Shown piece by piece: positions 26,672 to 40,393 of a stretch of 64,000 nucleotides of DNA; within the stretch, counting starts at the first letter, position 1, and every line of letters starts with the position of its first letter. The translations under genes and the position numbers were made by a program. The stretch comes from Natronorubrum sulfidifaciens JCM 14089. GTDB lineage: Archaea > Halobacteriota > Halobacteria > Halobacteriales > Natrialbaceae. The notes below the pieces were generated by a model. That model was not told the origin of the DNA and did not search any database. It saw only the letters and a list, made by a program, of their open reading frames with translations. The stretch covers positions 287,645-351,644 of the forward strand of contig NZ_AOHX01000026.1 of assembly GCF_000337735.1 (NCBI RefSeq), in the 5' to 3' direction.

Positions 26672-29635
<2,964 letters not shown>

Positions 29636-29695
29636 GCGGTCCCCGGCACGGCCGTCGGTTCACTGCGGATCGTCTACAGGCGGAGCAGGCCGAGT

Positions 29696-29717
29696 GCCTC
29701 GGGGCTTGACCCCGAGG
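29696..29717 (+). repeat. Left-end hairpin of the IS element
   Basis: Perfect stem cctcgggg/ccccgagg around cttga, 32 nt inside the inferred left end. It is identical to the hairpin at 31685-31706. Such imperfect or perfect subterminal hairpins are what IS200-type TnpA proteins recognise. Confidence 0.75.
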
Positions 29718-29736
29718 GTGAAGGCCGTAAGCCACG

Positions 29737-30137
29737 CTAAACGTGTTCCGTTCGCTCGATATACTGCTCAATCGTGTCGGTTGAAACATTGCCTGCCGTG
29801 CCCACGTAGTACGATTCCTCCCAAAACCCACCACCCACAGGTACTCCTCCAAGAACGACTCATGTTGTTCCCACATATCCCGTGCCGTGATGCTCTTGAC
29901 CGTTCGCACAATCTCACTCGGAGCGTGTCGTTCGAGAAACTTCGTCTCTCGTGATCCCGAAAATCTCCGATTTTCGGACGACGACAGTATCTCGTAGCTG
30001 TACTCGTCGCACACGTCGCGGAAACTCGCTTCCAGCGACTCCTCGATTGGTTAGGGGATGGCGTGGCAGTACTTCGGACACCACACGAAGTGGTAGTTGA
30101 CGTTGTACACCGTGTGGTTCGACCGCTTCTCGCCCAT
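29737..30137 (-). pseudogene. tnpA: Inactivated IS200-type transposase tnpA
   Basis: Read on the minus strand the gene starts MGEKRSNHTVYNVNYHFVWCPKYCHAIP and ends VSTDTIEQYIERTEHV, both typical of haloarchaeal Y1 (HUH) transposases. Three lesions are present. There is an in-frame TAA at codon 29 (30051-30053). A segment at 29944-29985, where the HUH motif should be, has been replaced by unrelated sequence. One G is missing near LWGGGFW, which shifts the frame before the C terminus. It cannot make an active transposase. Confidence 0.85.
29944..29985 (+). repeat. 42-nt copy of the tnpB 3' end inside tnpA
   Basis: It matches 31541-31582 over 42 nt with two mismatches, in the same orientation. 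It includes the palindromic part cgaaaatct-cgattttcg. It replaces the part of tnpA that would encode the HUH motif. Confidence 0.85.
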
Positions 30138-30190
30138 GTCGAACCCACTCCACCGATACAGTTAAGTATATCCAAAGGATATACATAGAT

Positions 30191-30346
30191 ATGGCGAATC
30201 GCTTTGAAATCGACGGCGAGGAAGTTCTCGACGGCGAGGTCAAGCCGTTCGGGAACAGCGCCCACGTCACCGTCCCCAAACGCTGGCGGGGAGCTGACGT
30301 GAAGGTCGTCCGAACCTCAGAACCCACCGAACAAGACGAAGAATGA
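30191..30346 (+). CDS. DUF2080 transposon-associated protein
   Basis: This 51-residue protein has an AbrB/SpoVT-like core (GEVKPFGNSAHVTVPKRWRGADVKVV) seen in the DUF2080 proteins that accompany haloarchaeal tnpB genes. Its TGA overlaps the tnpB ATG by 4 nt, so the two are translationally coupled. An AT-rich patch (gtatatccaaaggatatac) about 20 nt upstream of the ATG is a likely promoter. It may bind DNA or RNA and regulate the element; this has not been shown. Confidence 0.85.
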   Translation: MANRFEIDGEEVLDGEVKPFGNSAHVTVPKRWRGADVKVVRTSEPTEQDEE

Positions 30347-31551
30347 CCGACGAACAGGCTCTCGTCAAGACGCTGGACTTCCAACTCGACATCCAGAGTG
30401 ACAACGAGAGCCTGTTGTACGACGCCACCCTCGAAGCCCGCTCGGTGTACAACGAAACCATCCGCCTCGCCAAGCAAGGCGTGGATTGGAATGCGATTCC
30501 CGACCACGTGGCCGACGACGCCAACCTCGTGAAGAACACGACACAGCGTGTCGTCGCCAAGGCACTCGGAGCGATGGAGAACTACTACGAGTACGACGAC
30601 TTCGGCCAACCGAGTCACACCAAGGACGGCCCGTACCCGCTTCGAGCCAATTACGAGGAAGGGTACAACCTGTCTCTCACCGACGACGGTGACGTGGCGT
30701 TCCGAATCAGCGCGAAACCGTACAATCACGTCAAGGGTGTCCTCAAAGGAAGTAACGCCCACCTCGACATTCTCAAGACCGCACTCGAAAGTGATGAGTG
30801 GAAGATCGGGACGGCGGAAGCCCTGTTCCACGGCGGGAGCGCCGAGTTGCACGTCAACGTCACTAACACCGAGCAGACTGTTCGAGACAAGCAGGACTCA
30901 CGGACGGTTATCGGTGTGGACGTGAACGAGGACAACGTGTCCCTCACCGCACTCTCCGAGGATGGCGTCGAAGGCACGCTCGTTATCGACTTCCCCGAAA
31001 TCAAGTTCGAGCGCCACCGCTACTTCACGATGCGAAAGCGCGTGCAGAACGCGAGGAAGGACAGCATCCACGACACGTTGGAAGGGCGTGAGGAACGGTT
31101 CGTCCGTGACCGACTCCACAAAGTGAGCCGTCACATCGTGGAGTGGAGTCAGCAGTTTGAGAAGCCGTGCATCGTCTTTGAAGACCTCAAAGAGATGCAC
31201 GACAGTATCGACTACGGCACGCGGATGAACCGACGCTTGCACCACCTCCCGTTCCGTGCCCTCCAGTTCTATACGTCCTACAAGGCATCGTTCGACGGAG
31301 TTCCGACCGCGTGGATTAACCCCGAGTACACCAGTCAGAGGTGTCCGATGTGCGGACATACGGAGCGAGCGAACCGCAACAAGAAGCGGTTCAAGTGTCG
31401 GTCGTGTTCCCATCAAGACCACAGCGACCGTGGTGCAAGCGTCAATATCGCCGTGAAAGGCATCAAGAAGCATCAAGATTGGAATGTGCCTGCTCTCAAC
31501 AGCCTTCCAGTTGTTCGGAAGGTGTCGACCGAGAGACGGAGTCTCTCGTGA
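30343..31551 (+). CDS. tnpB: TnpB (IS1341-type) RNA-guided nuclease
   Basis: This 402-residue protein is an intact TnpB. The RuvC acidic residues are in GVDVNEDN (Asp193), FEDLKEM (Glu280) and DRGASVN (Asp362). A zinc ribbon CPMC...CRSC sits between the second and third. TnpB proteins cut DNA guided by an RNA from the element's right end and help retain the element after excision. All key residues are present, so nuclease activity is plausible although the partner tnpA is dead. Its last codons form part of the 42-nt repeat. Confidence 0.93.
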   Translation: MTDEQALVKTLDFQLDIQSDNESLLYDATLEARSVYNETIRLAKQGVDWNAIPDHVADDANLVKNTTQRVVAKALGAMENYYEYDDFGQPSHTKDGPYPLRANYEEGYNLSLTDDGDVAFRISAKPYNHVKGVLKGSNAHLDILKTALESDEWKIGTAEALFHGGSAELHVNVTNTEQTVRDKQDSRTVIGVDVNEDNVSLTALSEDGVEGTLVIDFPEIKFERHRYFTMRKRVQNARKDSIHDTLEGREERFVRDRLHKVSRHIVEWSQQFEKPCIVFEDLKEMHDSIDYGTRMNRRLHHLPFRALQFYTSYKASFDGVPTAWINPEYTSQRCPMCGHTERANRNKKRFKCRSCSHQDHSDRGASVNIAVKGIKKHQDWNVPALNSLPVVRKVSTERRSLS

Positions 31552-31582
31552 TCACGAAAATCTTCGATTTTCGGACGACGAC
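31541..31582 (+). repeat. 42-nt repeat at the tnpB 3' end
   Basis: It covers the last three tnpB codons, the stop and an 8-bp stem-loop (cgaaaatc/gattttcg). A second copy lies at 29944-29985 inside the tnpA remnant. Confidence 0.85.
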
Positions 31583-31684
31583 GGCAGGCATCGGGGGCCG
31601 TGGACGCCCCGACCGTGACCCACCCGACCGTTCGAGGCTATCAGGCCGATGGTCGGATGGGAGTGTCCGACTAACCCACGGGAA

Positions 31685-31706
31685 GCCTCGGGGCTTGACC
31701 CCGAGG
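31685..31706 (+). repeat. Right-end hairpin of the IS element
   Basis: This 22-nt hairpin is identical to 29696-29717. It ends 8 nt before the inferred right boundary (cggttcac). Confidence 0.75.
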
Positions 31707-31714
31707 CGGTTCAC

Positions 31715-33444: not shown

Positions 33445-33452
33445 TTTAAATA
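33445..33452 (+). promoter_or_regulatory. TATA box of the helicase-nuclease operon
   Basis: tttaaata lies 34-41 nt before the ATG at 33486, in a GC-rich surround. The spacing predicts a start site about 5-10 nt before the first codon. Confidence 0.55.
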
Positions 33453-33485
33453 CCAACTCGGCCATACTGAGGGACAGATCAACTG

Positions 33486-35720
33486 ATGGCGTCTCCTCCA
33501 GCCCCGCTCGAGGGCACCTGCAAACTCCTTTCCGAGCCTGCGCCCAGCGATGCCCTTTTCGAGCGGATCGCGTCCGAATACGCCGCCCTCGCCGACGAGT
33601 ACGGCCCTCGGAACGTCCTCGTCTTGAAACGACACCCGACGGGTCTCGAGTCACTGACCGGCGCCCTTTCCGGAGTCGACGCGACCAGCGGCACCCCGCG
33701 CTCGCCACGTGTCGAGTCGTTGCCCGAACACGCCTCGAAAGTGCTCGAAGAGTACGATCCGACGCTGGATCGCCTCGAGTACGAAGAGCGGATCGAGCTC
33801 ATCTCGCTGGTGATCGACGGCGCCAGCCGCGACGTGCCGGAGTATCTCGAGCGCGCGGCGAGCCACGAGAGCTTCGCCCGCGACGTCGGGCAACTGCTGC
33901 TCGAGGCGACCCGCCAACGGCTTCGCCGCGATGAGTTCGAGGCCGAGCCACACGACTGTCTGGCCTTTCTCTACGCGATGAACGATCGGTTCCACGCCGA
34001 ACTCGAGGCTCGAGGCTACGTCGAGCGGGCAGACGTGATCCCGCGGACCGTCGACGTGCTCGAGGCGGACGCTGACGGGCTACAAACCAGAGTCACCGAC
34101 TCGGTCGATGCCGTTCTCGCCGTCGAATTCGAAGAGTTTCGGCGGCTCGACCGGCGCTATCTCGGGGCGCTCACCCACGATGCGGAACTCGTTTGTCTGG
34201 GCGAGCGCCATGCCAGCGTCGAGCGCACGCGTGTCGAATCCGGCCGCATCGAGGACCACGTCGGCGACGGCCTCGCGGTGGAGGTGCTCGAGACAGGGCC
34301 CGAAGACGGCGAGAACAGCGAGCCGCCACACCGGGAGATAACGCGGTTTCTGGCGACGGGAAGATCACCGTCGGCAGCGGGAGCGGATGAAGCCACCGAG
34401 CAGGCACCGAGTCGGGCACGCCGAATCCGCGCTCGAACCGCACGTGGACAGGTCAAACGCGTCGCCACCGAGATCCAGGCCCTCCGAGGTCGCCACGACT
34501 GGACGTACGACGACGTCGCCGTCGCAGTGCCACGGATCGAACGCGTGCCCGAAACCAGAGCCCAGCTTCGCGAGGCCGGGATCCCAACGGCGACGATCGG
34601 CACCCCCTCGCTTGCGGAGGATCCTGCCGTCAACGAACTGTACGCGTTCGTGACGCTGCAGTGTGCCCTCGAGCGTGGCTCCGGGCGACGCGACCTGTTC
34701 GACACAACCACGTCCGATCGAGACGCGGGCGATCCGCTCGACGTCTCGCTCGATCGACTGCAGGCTCGCGTCGAAGAGTTCTCGCCCGACCTACTCGAGT
34801 CGTGTGCCGGCTCGAGCGTCTCCCGATCGCTCGAGCGGTGGCTCCACCGGACGGATCTGAAAGGCCGCATCGCCCGCGACGAGGCGTGGGTCGACGCACG
34901 CGAACAGTACGAAGGCGTCCGTCGGGTGCTCGAGATCGCCCGGTTCGTCGAGGAGACGGATCTCGTCGGGCCGGACTGGCAGGGGCTGCGACGGATGCTC
35001 CGACGAACGATCCAGTACGACGCCCCCTACGTCCACGCCGTCGACACACAACCGCCAACCGGCGGCGTCACGGTCTGTGCCGTCGACGACCTGAAATACG
35101 ATTCGCGAGAGGCCGTCTTCGTGCTTGATCTGACCGACGACAGCTACCCCGGCGAGCAGTTTCTCACCCAGCTGTTCCCGACGGCGTGGCTGCGCGAGAT
35201 GCCAACGTATCCGGCCGTCACCGATCCTACCAGAGCGGAGCTGACGGCGACGTTTTCCACCGTCGCGCCCGAGGACGTCGGCGACCCCTTCGAAACGTAC
35301 CACGCCCAGCGCTCTCGGCGACGGCTCGCCCTCGCCTCTCGAGCCGCCCGCACGCAGCTCTACTGCTGTTCGTACGAACGCGGCGCTGGCGGCCTGCGTC
35401 GAACGTACGACGAGTCGCGTTACCTGCACCTGCTCGACTCGACGCCCGGCCTTGAGCTGACGAGCGTCGACGACGAGCCGACGGCGGCGATCCACGGCGA
35501 GACAAACGCCCTCGAGGCGCTGCTCGCCCAGCCCCACGGCGAACTCGAGCGAATCCTCCGGGAGGCGAGTACGGGCGGCGAGGCCGACCTCGGAACGACC
35601 GAGGAGCTGTTCGAGGAGATCGCGGTCGTCCTCGAGGCGGGCGACATCGACGACGACCTCGCCGAAGCAGTGCGATCGCAGTTCGAGTTCGCTGCAGGAG
35701 AAGTGATTCGCAATGAGTGA
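33486..35720 (+). CDS. AddB/RecC-like degenerate helicase subunit
   Basis: This 744-residue protein resembles the second RecA-like half of SF1A helicases. It has a VKRVATEIQALRGRHDWTYDDVAVAVPR strand, a LREAGIPTATIGTPSLAEDPAVNELYAFV motif IV-like part, VTVCAVDDLKYDSREAVFVLDLTDDSYPG (motif V-like) and RRRLALASRAARTQLYCCSYERG (motif VI-like). Where Walker A should be, the sequence (SEPAPSDALFERI) has no GKT/S, so it is not an ATPase. AddB and RecC subunits have the same inactivated state. It overlaps the next gene by 8 nt (ATGAGTGA). Confidence 0.72.
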   Translation: MASPPAPLEGTCKLLSEPAPSDALFERIASEYAALADEYGPRNVLVLKRHPTGLESLTGALSGVDATSGTPRSPRVESLPEHASKVLEEYDPTLDRLEYEERIELISLVIDGASRDVPEYLERAASHESFARDVGQLLLEATRQRLRRDEFEAEPHDCLAFLYAMNDRFHAELEARGYVERADVIPRTVDVLEADADGLQTRVTDSVDAVLAVEFEEFRRLDRRYLGALTHDAELVCLGERHASVERTRVESGRIEDHVGDGLAVEVLETGPEDGENSEPPHREITRFLATGRSPSAAGADEATEQAPSRARRIRARTARGQVKRVATEIQALRGRHDWTYDDVAVAVPRIERVPETRAQLREAGIPTATIGTPSLAEDPAVNELYAFVTLQCALERGSGRRDLFDTTTSDRDAGDPLDVSLDRLQARVEEFSPDLLESCAGSSVSRSLERWLHRTDLKGRIARDEAWVDAREQYEGVRRVLEIARFVEETDLVGPDWQGLRRMLRRTIQYDAPYVHAVDTQPPTGGVTVCAVDDLKYDSREAVFVLDLTDDSYPGEQFLTQLFPTAWLREMPTYPAVTDPTRAELTATFSTVAPEDVGDPFETYHAQRSRRRLALASRAARTQLYCCSYERGAGGLRRTYDESRYLHLLDSTPGLELTSVDDEPTAAIHGETNALEALLAQPHGELERILREASTGGEADLGTTEELFEEIAVVLEAGDIDDDLAEAVRSQFEFAAGEVIRNE

Positions 35721-36756
35721 GCACGCCCGCGACGGCAAGGCCGACGCGATGGAACTGACGGTCGACGGCCTCGAGACGTATCTCCACTGTCCGCGCCGGT
35801 ACGAGTTCGCCCACGACCACGGCCTCGCTGGCAGCGACGACGACACCACAATCGACGACCGCGTTGCTCTCTTGCGGACGGCGATCTGTGACGGGCTTCG
35901 ACGTGGCGATCCCGACCGTGAGGCCCTCGAAGACGCCATCAAAACGCGACTCGAGACGCTGTGGGACGGCCACGACGAGCCGTTTCACTCGCTGGCCCAG
36001 CGACGCCACGAACGGCGAGTGCTCGAGGCGACCGCGACAGCGTACGTCGACCGCGTCGGCGTCGACCACGCGGCCGGGATCGAACGACTGGCGTCGGAGG
36101 CGACCGAGGGAGCCGTGATCGGGCCGGGGCTTTCGCTCTCGAGTACGGTATCGGTTCCAGAAACGGACGAAACGACGGTGTCGATCGACGCGAGCGTCGA
36201 CTACGTCTACGCCGATGGCTCCGCGATCGTCGGCGTCCAGTTCGTCCCGACGCTCAGATCGCTCGGCCTGCTGCGCTACCGATCGGAGTGGGAGGGGGCC
36301 GTCGCCGAACAGTTTACCGACCACTTCGACCCCGACGCGGACGTCTTCGAGCCGACGTTCGTCGGCGCACTGTTCGAAACCGCCGTCGTCATCGACGGGC
36401 TTCGCAACCACTGCCGGCGGTTGGGCCTCGAGGACCGAACCTGCCGGTACGTCCGGATTCCGCTCGCTGACCGCTCGCAGACGGCGGTCAACTGGGCTCG
36501 CAAAACCGTCCAGACGAGCCTCGAGGTCGCAGATCTGACCGACGTCTACATCGACCACCACACGTTTGGCATGACACACGAACACCGCAATCGAACCGTC
36601 GACGATCGGCTGGCGACTGTCGCCGGCCGCCTGGCCACAGGCGCGTTCGATCCGACCGACCGCTGGGATTCGATTTCGAACCACGCCTGTCCGGACTGTT
36701 CGTACACGGTCTGCTGTCAGGAGTACATCGCCCAGGAGGTGCGGTTCGATGGGTGA
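35713..36756 (+). CDS. PD-(D/E)XK nuclease-fold protein with four-cysteine cluster, active site degenerate
   Basis: This 347-residue protein has the Cas4/AddB-type iron-sulfur staple: Cys26 in YLHCPRRYEF and Cys326, Cys329, Cys334 and Cys335 in CPDCSYTVCC. The central nuclease strand SIDASVDYVYADG keeps the Asp, but the following E-x-K position reads GVQFVPT, so catalytic residues are lost. A structural or DNA-binding role, as in RecC, is inferred. It overlaps both neighbours by 8 nt and is clearly one unit with them. Confidence 0.72.
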   Translation: MSEHARDGKADAMELTVDGLETYLHCPRRYEFAHDHGLAGSDDDTTIDDRVALLRTAICDGLRRGDPDREALEDAIKTRLETLWDGHDEPFHSLAQRRHERRVLEATATAYVDRVGVDHAAGIERLASEATEGAVIGPGLSLSSTVSVPETDETTVSIDASVDYVYADGSAIVGVQFVPTLRSLGLLRYRSEWEGAVAEQFTDHFDPDADVFEPTFVGALFETAVVIDGLRNHCRRLGLEDRTCRYVRIPLADRSQTAVNWARKTVQTSLEVADLTDVYIDHHTFGMTHEHRNRTVDDRLATVAGRLATGAFDPTDRWDSISNHACPDCSYTVCCQEYIAQEVRFDG

Positions 36757-39700
36757 ACACCGAGCGCAGGCCGTCGACGAGCCGAAAGGGAACCAACAGG
36801 CCGTCATCGACAGCCGGGCAGCCTGTACCTCCGTCGACGCCGGCGCGGGAACCGGGAAGACGACGACGATGCTCATGCGGATCGAGCACGCGATCGAACG
36901 CGGCGACGTCGATCCCGACGACATTCTGGTGTTGACGTTCGCAAACGAAGCCGCCGGCAGCATCCGTGATGCGGTCGCCGAGCGCCTCGACCCTGAGGCC
37001 GCCGCGGCGATCGACGTCTACACCTATCACTCGTTTTGTTACCGGCTGGTCCGGGAGTACGCCTACTACCTCGGCTACTCGCCCGAGTTCGACGTGATCA
37101 CAGAACGCACACGCCGGCGGATCGTCGGCCGGCTGCTCGCCGAAAACGACTACGACTTCGCGGCCGCATCAGTGCGTGGCGACGGCACACCCGAGGAGTT
37201 CGCCGCCGACGTCGACCGGTTCATCCAGTCGATGAGCCAGGAAGACATCACCCCCGACGAGCTACAGACACAGCTGCCAGCTGTCCGCACCCTCGAGCTC
37301 TGTAACGAGTTCGTCCTCCGGCTCGAGCGCCGAGCGAGCGCCGACCTTTCCTTCGACAACGAGGCGCTGCGCTACTTCAACAGCGACGACCACCTCGAGG
37401 CGACCACCGAGTCACTGGTCGGCTACGGCAAGCTCCTCGAGTTCTGTCGCGAGCAGATCGCCGAAGCGCCGGCGACGTTCCGCGAAGACGACGTCGTCCG
37501 CGACGTCGAGCGCTATCTCCGGGTGCTCCAGGGCTGTGTGACGAACACGATCGACGTGCTCGATCTCGAGGATCCGACGACCAAGCAGCTGCCACGTGCC
37601 CTGTTCGGCAACGAGATCTGGCGGACAGCGACGAATCGGATCGAACAGAGCCCGTTCGGGCGGCTGAAACACTACATCGAGTTCCTGCGTCTTGCACGCC
37701 ACTACACTGACGTGTACGCCGACTATCACGACCACCTCGAGCACGAGCGGACGCTCGATTTCGACGAACTGGTGCGAACGGCGACGGAACTGCTCGACGA
37801 TCCCGCGATCGCCGACGAGATCACGAGCCAGTGGACCGACGTCTACTGCGACGAGTTTCAGGATACCGACGAGACGCAGTTCGCGCTCATCACCGAGCTC
37901 ACCGATGGTCCCGACAGGCCCGACTTGCTGGCTATTGGTGACAAGGATCAAGCGATTTACGGCTGGCGGGGCACCGATCGGGAAGGGCTTGACAGGCTCG
38001 CCGACGCCTACGACGACCACGAGGCGATCGAACTCGAGCTCAACTTCCGCTCGCGACAGGAGATCCTCGATCTAACGAATCACTGTGAGTACGGCCCCCA
38101 ATCGACGAAAACGCTGCGTGAGGACGGACGCACGCCCGGCGAGTACGCGACTGACGACGAGGACAGCACTGGAACGGAACGCCAGCCACCGGATCGTGTC
38201 GTCAAAATCGAAAGCGACGAAATCGACCGCTCGACGGCCGAACAGGTCGCGACGACCGTCTCGAGGCTGCTCAACGACGACGCGGAAAACGTCCCCCAAC
38301 GGACACTTGAGGACATCGCGGTCATCGTGCGGACGAACCGCCACGCACAGGCGGTCGCCGACGAACTGCGAGACCGCCAGATCCCCTACGAGATTTCGGG
38401 CTCGCCACGCGGCGAGATCCAGCCTGGGGTCCGGACGCTGCTGTCGTATCTGCGCGTGCTCGTCGATTCCGATGCCGACGCCCACCTCCGGCGTGTGCTG
38501 CTCTACCGGTACCGACTCGCCGAAGCTGATCTCGCGACGCTCCAGCGACGGGAGGGGACGCTGTACGATGCCGTGATGAGGATCGATCCAGCGATCCTCG
38601 AGTCCCCCGACCGACTCGAGCGAGCGCGCGACCACCTCGAGGCACTCGAAACGCTCCGTGACGTCTATCCACTGACCGGCTTTTTCAGCCGCTTCCGTGA
38701 ACTGACGCGACTCGAGTGGTTCCTGACGAGCGAGGAGCGTGAGGAACTCGAGCGCGTCGAGCGCTTCGTCGAGGCGTATACCGCCGACTCGGTGATCGAG
38801 ACGCTGACGCCACGGTTTGTCGACGCACTGGAGGGAACGCTCGAGGGGACCGGCACCGACCGGACGCGGGGCACGCAGTCGACCGATTCGGTCGACGTGA
38901 TGACGGTCCACCAGGCTAAAGGCCTCGAGTTCGACACCGTCCTCGTCCCCTACCTCTCCGACGAGGAGTGGTGTGTCGAGCGCGATTACGCCGAGCGCGC
39001 CCAGTACCGCCTGCTCGCGGCGGCGCTCGACGACGGGATCGAGTCGCCGCTGTGTGCCGACCTCGCGACCGAGACGGTCGGCGAGGAGTGGCGAGTACTG
39101 CACGTCGCGCTCACCCGCGCCGAGAACCACCTGTTCGTCTTCGGCTCCGAGTACGACTACGACGGCGAGGAGGGCGAACTCGCGGCGTCGACCGCAGAGG
39201 CGTGTCTGGCAAGCGAGATCGAGTGGTCGGTCACAGGCGAACGGATGAACCTCTGGACGTCGCTGCGGGCGAGTTTCGATCGCGTACAGGAGACGTATCC
39301 CGAAACCGTCGTCGACCGAACCGACGAGATCGCGCTGTCGGCCGCCCGCAGTCCGGGAACCATCACCTACTACGCCGGCTACGACGACCGCCCGCACGAA
39401 CCCCTCGAGACGCGCGAGGCGATCGACACGGTCCACAGACTCGGCCGGTTGCTTCGCGAGGGAACGTTGCTGCCGGCGGCCGACGCGGCGAGTTTCGGCG
39501 GCCTCGAGCGCGAACTCGAGGGGATGGCGCAACCGGTGCCGAGCAGTCGCTGGGCGTCTGCGCTGACGACCGAGACGGTTCGGTTCCCCGTCGAGACGCT
39601 CTCGAACGCAACCGAGCTGCCGGTTGCGATGCGACACAGCTACACGGCGATGGAAACGTACGACACCTGTCCGCGAAAGCATTACCTCGAGCACGTCGTG

Positions 39701-40393
39701 CGGGCGACTGACGATCCGCTGGCGTCGATGCCCAGTGTCGGGACGGGCTCGCGACTCGTCGGCACGCTCTTTCACGACATCGCCGAGGAAGCGTTCTACC
39801 GGGAGTACCGAACCATAAAAGAGTGGCAGACGGCCGCCATCCGACAGCTGACCGCGCGTGATCTGCTCGAGCACCGCGAGGCCGTGGTCGCCTGCATCAG
39901 GCGCTACTTCGAGGCGAGTGCTCCCGCGTTCGACGACCCGGTCGCTGACTGGGAGCCAGTCGCCGCGGAACTGCCGTTCAGTCTCGAGGACATCGACGGC
40001 GTCACCGGCAGCCTCGTGGGCTACATCGACTCGATCCGACGGACACCCGACGGCGACCTCGCCGTCCTCGATTACAAGGCAACGGCCGAGCGGATCGACC
40101 CCACCGACGCCACCCAGCTAGCGCTGTACGCCCGCGCCTGCGAGCAACGCTTCGACGAACCACTCTCGGTCGTCGGCTACGTCTACGTCGGCGACGTCGA
40201 CGGGCCGCGCGTCGACCTCATCGAACCCGACGACCTCCCGTCGTGGTCGGCCGTCCGCGAGACGCTTATCGCAGTCGACGATCCGTCGCTCGAGGAGACG
40301 ACGCCCGGCGAGCACTGCCAGTACTGTCCGCATCGGTCGCTTGGCTGCGGCCCCGAGGAGGACACCGAACTACCGATCTCGAGCGACGACTGA
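36749..40393 (+). CDS. UvrD/AddA-like helicase with C-terminal PD-(D/E)XK nuclease
   Basis: This 1214-residue protein has a complete SF1A helicase: Walker A DAGAGTGKTTT (Lys37), Walker B DEFQD (368-372), GDKDQAIYGWRG (about 397), LNFRS, VHQAKGLEF (about 719) and HVALTRAENHL (about 785). The C-terminal nuclease has GYIDSI (about 1090) and LDYK (about 1107), with the four-cysteine staple CPRKHYLEH (about 973) and HCQYCPHRSLGC (about 1189-1200). The layout equals AddA/RecB, so DNA-end unwinding and resection is expected. It is the last gene of a three-gene overlapping operon. Confidence 0.88.
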   Translation: MGEHRAQAVDEPKGNQQAVIDSRAACTSVDAGAGTGKTTTMLMRIEHAIERGDVDPDDILVLTFANEAAGSIRDAVAERLDPEAAAAIDVYTYHSFCYRLVREYAYYLGYSPEFDVITERTRRRIVGRLLAENDYDFAAASVRGDGTPEEFAADVDRFIQSMSQEDITPDELQTQLPAVRTLELCNEFVLRLERRASADLSFDNEALRYFNSDDHLEATTESLVGYGKLLEFCREQIAEAPATFREDDVVRDVERYLRVLQGCVTNTIDVLDLEDPTTKQLPRALFGNEIWRTATNRIEQSPFGRLKHYIEFLRLARHYTDVYADYHDHLEHERTLDFDELVRTATELLDDPAIADEITSQWTDVYCDEFQDTDETQFALITELTDGPDRPDLLAIGDKDQAIYGWRGTDREGLDRLADAYDDHEAIELELNFRSRQEILDLTNHCEYGPQSTKTLREDGRTPGEYATDDEDSTGTERQPPDRVVKIESDEIDRSTAEQVATTVSRLLNDDAENVPQRTLEDIAVIVRTNRHAQAVADELRDRQIPYEISGSPRGEIQPGVRTLLSYLRVLVDSDADAHLRRVLLYRYRLAEADLATLQRREGTLYDAVMRIDPAILESPDRLERARDHLEALETLRDVYPLTGFFSRFRELTRLEWFLTSEEREELERVERFVEAYTADSVIETLTPRFVDALEGTLEGTGTDRTRGTQSTDSVDVMTVHQAKGLEFDTVLVPYLSDEEWCVERDYAERAQYRLLAAALDDGIESPLCADLATETVGEEWRVLHVALTRAENHLFVFGSEYDYDGEEGELAASTAEACLASEIEWSVTGERMNLWTSLRASFDRVQETYPETVVDRTDEIALSAARSPGTITYYAGYDDRPHEPLETREAIDTVHRLGRLLREGTLLPAADAASFGGLERELEGMAQPVPSSRWASALTTETVRFPVETLSNATELPVAMRHSYTAMETYDTCPRKHYLEHVVRATDDPLASMPSVGTGSRLVGTLFHDIAEEAFYREYRTIKEWQTAAIRQLTARDLLEHREAVVACIRRYFEASAPAFDDPVADWEPVAAELPFSLEDIDGVTGSLVGYIDSIRRTPDGDLAVLDYKATAERIDPTDATQLALYARACEQRFDEPLSVVGYVYVGDVDGPRVDLIEPDDLPSWSAVRETLIAVDDPSLEETTPGEHCQYCPHRSLGCGPEEDTELPISSDD

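Follow-up and report, generated by a model that had tools for sequence, protein, structure and literature searches.

What kind of enzyme is encoded by three overlapping genes, here called A, B and C, in the haloarchaeon Natronorubrum sulfidifaciens JCM 14089? The genes lie in a stretch of 64,000 nucleotides (contig NZ_AOHX01000026.1, positions 287,645 to 351,644 of the forward strand; hereafter the window) of a haloarchaeal genome of 3.46 Mb. A first-pass annotation of the window had proposed that C is an active helicase-nuclease and that A and B, an inactivated helicase and an inactivated nuclease, together equal one RecC/AddB subunit in two pieces. Judged by sequence comparison, A and B are together collinear with one full-length AddB, and they meet near the boundary of its helicase and nuclease parts. 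In homology and architecture, the locus very probably represents a split AddB-type partner combined with a helicase-nuclease. We consider it probable that the three products are subunits of one ATP-dependent helicase-nuclease of the AddAB/RecBC type, which likely processes DNA ends.

A and B as two parts of AddB

The three reading frames have exactly the coordinates and lengths that the first-pass annotation gave (Table 1). Its description of A as a helicase-like protein without Walker A holds for the family, as none of the N-termini of A that were read contains this motif (among the 77 starts, some had been called short), and the sequence AVEFEEF at amino acids (aa) 212-218 of A probably replaces motif II. 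A Pfam scan of A gave no match. When a profile of 64 A sequences was compared with the PDB, the best match was Bacillus subtilis AddB (3u44_B, E = 6e-9); UvrD1, PcrA and AdnA came next. The predicted structure of A, with a predicted local distance difference test (pLDDT) score of 83.4, matched the folds of UvrD, AddB, AdnAB and RecB; UvrD-type helicases came first by E-value, and the highest query-normalised template modelling (TM) score among the matches listed was that of AddB 4cej_B (0.60), with UvrD at about 0.5 and RecC at 0.44-0.45. Furthermore, hhalign aligned A with positions 50-796 of a profile built from the single-chain AddB proteins of methanogens (L219, L221 and L222; E = 2.6e-13, 615 columns). 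Among 247 genomes of the phylum, relatives of A outside the haloarchaea were limited to weak partial matches to proteins of the size of UvrD, AddA or AddB.

Gene B gave a partial Pfam match to PDDEXK_1 (3.8e-8). The three best PDB matches of its predicted structure (pLDDT 91.3) were all AddB, 4cej_B being the best (E 2.3e-4 to 5.6e-4), with modest superposition scores (query-normalised TM-score <0.4). The fold class of B is well supported, and B is assigned to AddB on these matches taken together with the profile and the gene context. Against the methanogen AddB profile, B aligned at positions 706-892 (E = 1.2e-4), and V-Q-F of B stood opposite D-Y-K of AddB. The earlier view of B as a nuclease fold with a lost catalytic site is thereby upheld, since the acid is gone at IVGVQF, where relatives have D-Y-K. 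Throughout the clade of the window the second catalytic acid is lost, and the lysine is also gone in most members (it is kept in L051 and L110). B still has H119, D163 and four cysteines (C26, C326, C329 and C335), which probably bind an iron-sulphur (Fe-S) cluster. A decaying pseudogene was ruled out by these kept residues together with the ratio of nonsynonymous to synonymous substitution rates (dN/dS), which was below 1 for A, B and C in every pair tried and 0.10-0.45 for B in pairs from the clade of the window. Because such values indicate purifying selection, A, B and C are maintained genes.

The fold and profile comparison with AddB and RecC that the first-pass annotation suggested as a check thus found AddB for both A and B, and the idea of one subunit in two pieces stands as far as collinearity with AddB is concerned. 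However, the nearest relative is AddB and not RecC, because the fit to RecC is poorer and B is active in the sister clade.

Gene C and conservation of the operon

The reading of C as an SF1A helicase joined to a PD-(D/E)XK nuclease was confirmed by Pfam matches to UvrD-helicase (E = 1.6e-53), UvrD_C (8.8e-30) and PDDEXK_1 (6.5e-25), with both motif sets intact. The catalytic residues of the nuclease are accompanied by D1094, Q1123 and Y1127 and by cysteines 974, 1190, 1193 and 1200, and the helicase and nuclease residues are kept across the relatives of C. By sequence, C matches AdnB and A matches AdnA.

The loci examined came from two collections: about 80 were retrieved by place, and 79 were taken from a set of named genomes. 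Some genomes were drawn from both and therefore count twice in the locus numbers. The order A-B-C was found in every complete haloarchaeal locus (about 150), with A and B as two separate genes throughout; the three are neighbours in fixed order wherever the locus is complete, and the trio is conserved together, as its reading as one system had implied. Only truncated or broken loci deviate, for example L083, L084, L169, L170, L204, L207 and L214. One of them (L083:4704-6326) has A and an active B, yet its C frame extends over only about 530-540 aa and the copy appears broken. A was present in 49 of the 57 good-quality genomes of the window's family, and in 50 of all 61. The genes overlap by 8 bp at both the A/B and B/C junctions in the window, and in most relatives these junctions are -8 or -4 bp.

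Several observations weigh against an enzyme of the AddAB/RecBC type. Of the NCBIfam models, PcrA, RecB and AddA matched C, all far under the cut-off (137 bits for addA_Gpos, against a cut-off of 708); the AddA cut-off alone is weak evidence on C, because the haloarchaeal AddA of locus L085 likewise falls under it. In the tree, C forms a clade of its own, separate from archaeal AddA, and the C-terminal cysteines of its nuclease are missing in the archaeal AddAs seen here. B may have residual metal binding, as H119 and D163 are kept. Furthermore, NurA was found in 60 of the 61 genomes of the window's family, and another resection system is thus present. In the genome of the window, NurA is adjacent to a HerA-like gene (G000:C38:27473-31152); these findings rule out the operon as a replacement of HerA-NurA. 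A Rad50-like gene, only a candidate for Rad50, is also present. Since these systems are also present, A-B-C adds to other end-processing systems. HerA-NurA is described as absent from Haloferax volcanii in a review (PMC7776575); the NurA model nonetheless matches in this species.

The first-pass annotation had called a RecBC-like complex unexpected in archaea, which is too strong a statement. Two-gene addB-addA pairs, in this order, occur in methanogens (L219, L221 and L222, each with a single-chain AddB) and in one haloarchaeon, where the pair is of the ordinary kind (L085:4022-10706; AddB of 1018 aa and AddA of 1211 aa, addA_alphas E 1e-106). Proteins like the latter AddA (1212-1215 aa, comparable match) were seen in about ten more haloarchaeal genomes, and two of these (G133 and G134) also have the three-gene form. 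The system is still unusual in that AddB is split, C has a descent of its own, the B site was lost once and the sister clade is linked to Argonaute.

Loss of the nuclease site in B

The site of B is intact (D-x-K, e.g. RTDDGLHIFDYKRN) in 57 loci (active-B), and its acid is gone in 99 loci including the window (dead-B). In a tree of A and C, from which B was left out, the two sets were split on one branch with one state change, with a value of 100 in the Shimodaira-Hasegawa-like approximate likelihood ratio test (SH-aLRT). When archaeal AddA, UvrD-Cas4-like and UvrD sequences were added, both sets were monophyletic sister groups (support 98-99). AddB-type nucleases are commonly active. Because activity is their common state and the split lies on one branch, the simplest reading would be a single loss of the site at the base of the window's clade. 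There is a precedent in RecC, in which the inactivated nuclease domain forms a hoop for single-stranded DNA (PMC1185551). We speculate, tentatively, that haloarchaea independently repeated the transition from AddAB to RecBC, with a two-nuclease partner of Argonaute in defence islands (making guides and degrading DNA) and a housekeeping sister whose second nuclease was switched off and now acts as a RecC-like strand sensor, possibly reading a Chi-like sequence.

Genomic context and role

In Natrialbaceae, the neighbours of the dead-B loci are a CBS pair, a Nudix-like protein, an alcohol dehydrogenase, a prolyl-tRNA synthetase, a glutamate-synthase-like protein of 1.5 thousand residues and, in some, UvrA. 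Some more distant dead-B loci have a second fixed neighbourhood, with a SurE-like protein and a methyltransferase (the names CBS, Nudix, SurE and glutamate synthase were read off the sequence only). Because of the fixed location and near-universal presence, repair is favoured for the dead-B clade, and we would give a repair role an even chance. The active-B loci are sparse, spread over many families and carried by at least one plasmid, and their neighbours are Mrr-type, Eco57I-type methylase, DUF234/DUF4143 ATPase, PglZ and metallophosphoesterase/SMC-like genes, because of which defence is favoured for this clade. In one locus (L058:2346-6513), metallophosphoesterase and SMC-like genes, possibly a pair of the Mre11-Rad50 type, lie directly 5' of an active-B A-B-C.

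In 12 distinct genomes, comprising eight loci of the genome search and further named genomes, genes for an Argonaute (883-895 aa; PADLOC pAgo, 1081 bits) and a PLD-like protein (about 706 aa) lie directly 5' of A. In five of the eight loci of the genome search, 5 bp separate the PLD-like gene from A; the remaining three have an A whose called start lies further in. A close copy of this Argonaute (at least 84% identity) was found in 6 of 145 haloarchaeal genomes, and all six copies adjoin an active-B A-B-C, although these genomes are not independent because the cassette appears mobile. In the genome of the window, no match to this Argonaute was found. Argonaute guides are known to be made with the help of RecBCD, and AddAB co-precipitates with TtAgo (PMC10269773).

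Alternatively, the operon of the window, which has a common ancestry with a defence-island system, would be a fixed defence nuclease against viruses and plasmids, still degrading invading linear DNA, and not a repair enzyme. The sister clade does lie in defence islands, whose genes include Argonaute, PLD, Mrr, methylase and ATPase, and RecBCD of Escherichia coli also destroys phage DNA. However, the dead-B loci of Natrialbaceae are near-universal and lie in a conserved housekeeping neighbourhood, whereas defence genes are usually patchy, and we regard a defence role of the window's operon as rather unlikely.

Proposed mechanism

A, B and C quite probably assemble as one enzyme, as their shared gene order and the equivalence of A and B to AddB suggest. 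A and B would constitute a scaffold like that of AddB/RecC, which splits the duplex at a DNA end, guides the single strands and holds the other strand. C would be the only motor (SF1A, expected 3'-5') and move along one strand from the duplex end. In the window's version C would also be the only nuclease and, as sole motor and nuclease, it would have to trim the delivered strands as RecB does. B would have turned into a strand-holder that does not cut, probably stabilised by its Fe-S cluster. In Natrialbaceae, the dead-B form would most likely act on double-strand ends (break repair, collapsed forks and clearing of foreign linear DNA) beside Mre11-Rad50 and HerA-NurA, and the active-B form may serve defence islands, often in one operon with Argonaute.

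The assignment of C to the UvrD-Cas4 fusions was not supported by the tree, which puts C in a separate clade from its three references, presumed members (L216-L218) judged by size, cysteines and context and not taken from the list in PMC5704561. It is likewise very unlikely that no single complex is formed, C being a stand-alone fusion of the UvrD-Cas4 kind and A-B a separate co-transcribed DNA-binding pair. In favour of this reading, C is about equally similar to the presumed fusions and to AddA (124 bits at best in both cases), and UvrD-Cas4 proteins occur stand-alone or in varied contexts (PMC5704561). Against it, every complete locus holds all three genes, in a constant order and with overlapping ends, C has its own clade, and A plus B equals the known partner AddB.

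Comparison with known systems

As in AddAB, a partner with an inactive helicase and a nuclease precedes the helicase-nuclease, and the order addB-addA matches A-B-C; B has AddB-type Fe-S cysteines, and A and B match AddB in fold and profile. Unlike AddAB, the AddB is cut into two genes here and A has no Walker A, the AddB nuclease is inactivated in the window's clade with its cysteines kept (it is intact in the sister loci), and C is not an orthologue of AddA, being under the cut-off and in a separate clade, with four cysteines of its own. The dead-B form shares with RecBCD a partner whose helicase and nuclease are both predicted to be inactive, with one nuclease left in the RecB-like subunit. 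However, RecC consists of a single chain, A and B resemble AddB more closely, and the loss of the nuclease site in A-B-C is an event within the haloarchaea. The operon contains no RecD-like gene; no search for recD was made in the rest of the genome. Mycobacterial AdnAB likewise has UvrD-like motors with RecB-like nucleases, but both of its subunits are single chains with a motor and a nuclease, whereas here only C is so built and A has no nuclease domain; to obtain the published nuclease-dead AdnAB, the nuclease domain has to be altered in each of the two subunits (PMC13309787).

The Argonaute and PLD-like pair 5' of the sister A-B-C fits the description of the haloarchaeal Argonaute-PLD (APAP) defence system (PMC11442185). 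Its authors note "a helicase-encoding gene" near some ago-agaP operons; in the passages considered here the neighbour is mentioned only as a helicase gene, not as a three-gene, split AddAB-like set. Like C, the UvrD-Cas4 fusions combine an SF1 helicase with a Cas4-like four-cysteine nuclease (PMC5704561), but C is always accompanied by A and B in addition to its separate place in the tree.

With A-B-C, archaea gain a candidate of the RecBC type for DNA-end processing that is testable in culturable Natrialbaceae. The active and inactive forms in sister clades of one small family offer a natural experiment on the loss of a second nuclease. Furthermore, the five-gene operon unites in one unit a link between Argonaute and end processor so far known from separate loci (PMC10269773), and guide generation by a dedicated helicase-nuclease becomes directly testable with it.

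Locus layout and expression signals

Table 1. Features of the A-B-C locus (positions in the window unless another locus is named)
Feature	Position	Strand	Remarks
TATA box, TTTAAATA	33445..33452	+	Archaeal type, predicted from sequence; 41 bp 5' of the start codon of A
Conserved block, CATACTCGGTGACGTA	33467-33482		Between TATA box and start of A; copy in the window diverged (catactgagggacaga)
Gene A	33486..35720	+	AddB-like inactive SF1 helicase part, 744 aa, P0001
Gene B	35713..36756	+	AddB-like nuclease part, 347 aa, P0002; four-cysteine signature, catalytic acid lost
Lost active site of B	36226..36243	+	IVGVQF, aa 172-177; xxDYKx in sister clade
Gene C	36749..40393	+	SF1A (UvrD-type) helicase and PD-(D/E)XK nuclease, 1214 aa, P0003; both motif sets intact
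Walker A of C, GAGTGKT	36842..36862	+	aa 32-38; A33, G34, G36, K37 and T38 at least 95% conserved
Walker B/motif II of C, DEFQD	37850..37864	+	aa 368-372
D-Y-K of C nuclease	40070..40078	+	aa 1108-1110; catalytic, at least 95% conserved
Five-gene operon	L060:1378-12669		Argonaute, PLD-like, A, active B, C
Same five-gene operon			L062, L063, L066, L069, L071, L078, L079, L199, L200, L206, L210

In a comparison of the upstream regions of 40 loci, a TTTAARTA-like box was found 5' of A in most Natrialbaceae loci, and many Natrialbaceae have the CATACTCGGTGACGTA block in the interval from the TATA box to the start of A. A larger regulon marked by this block was rejected, as its other matches in four genomes look like chance; the block appears to be specific to the promoter of A.

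The nearest named relative found was Natronorubrum bangense, with 97% identity across A. Between UvrA and the upstream region of A, the window has a segment of about 2.08 kb (29634-31711) with a lone TnpB gene (30343-31551). Because N. bangense (L137) has only about 123 bp at this place, the segment looks like a recent insertion.

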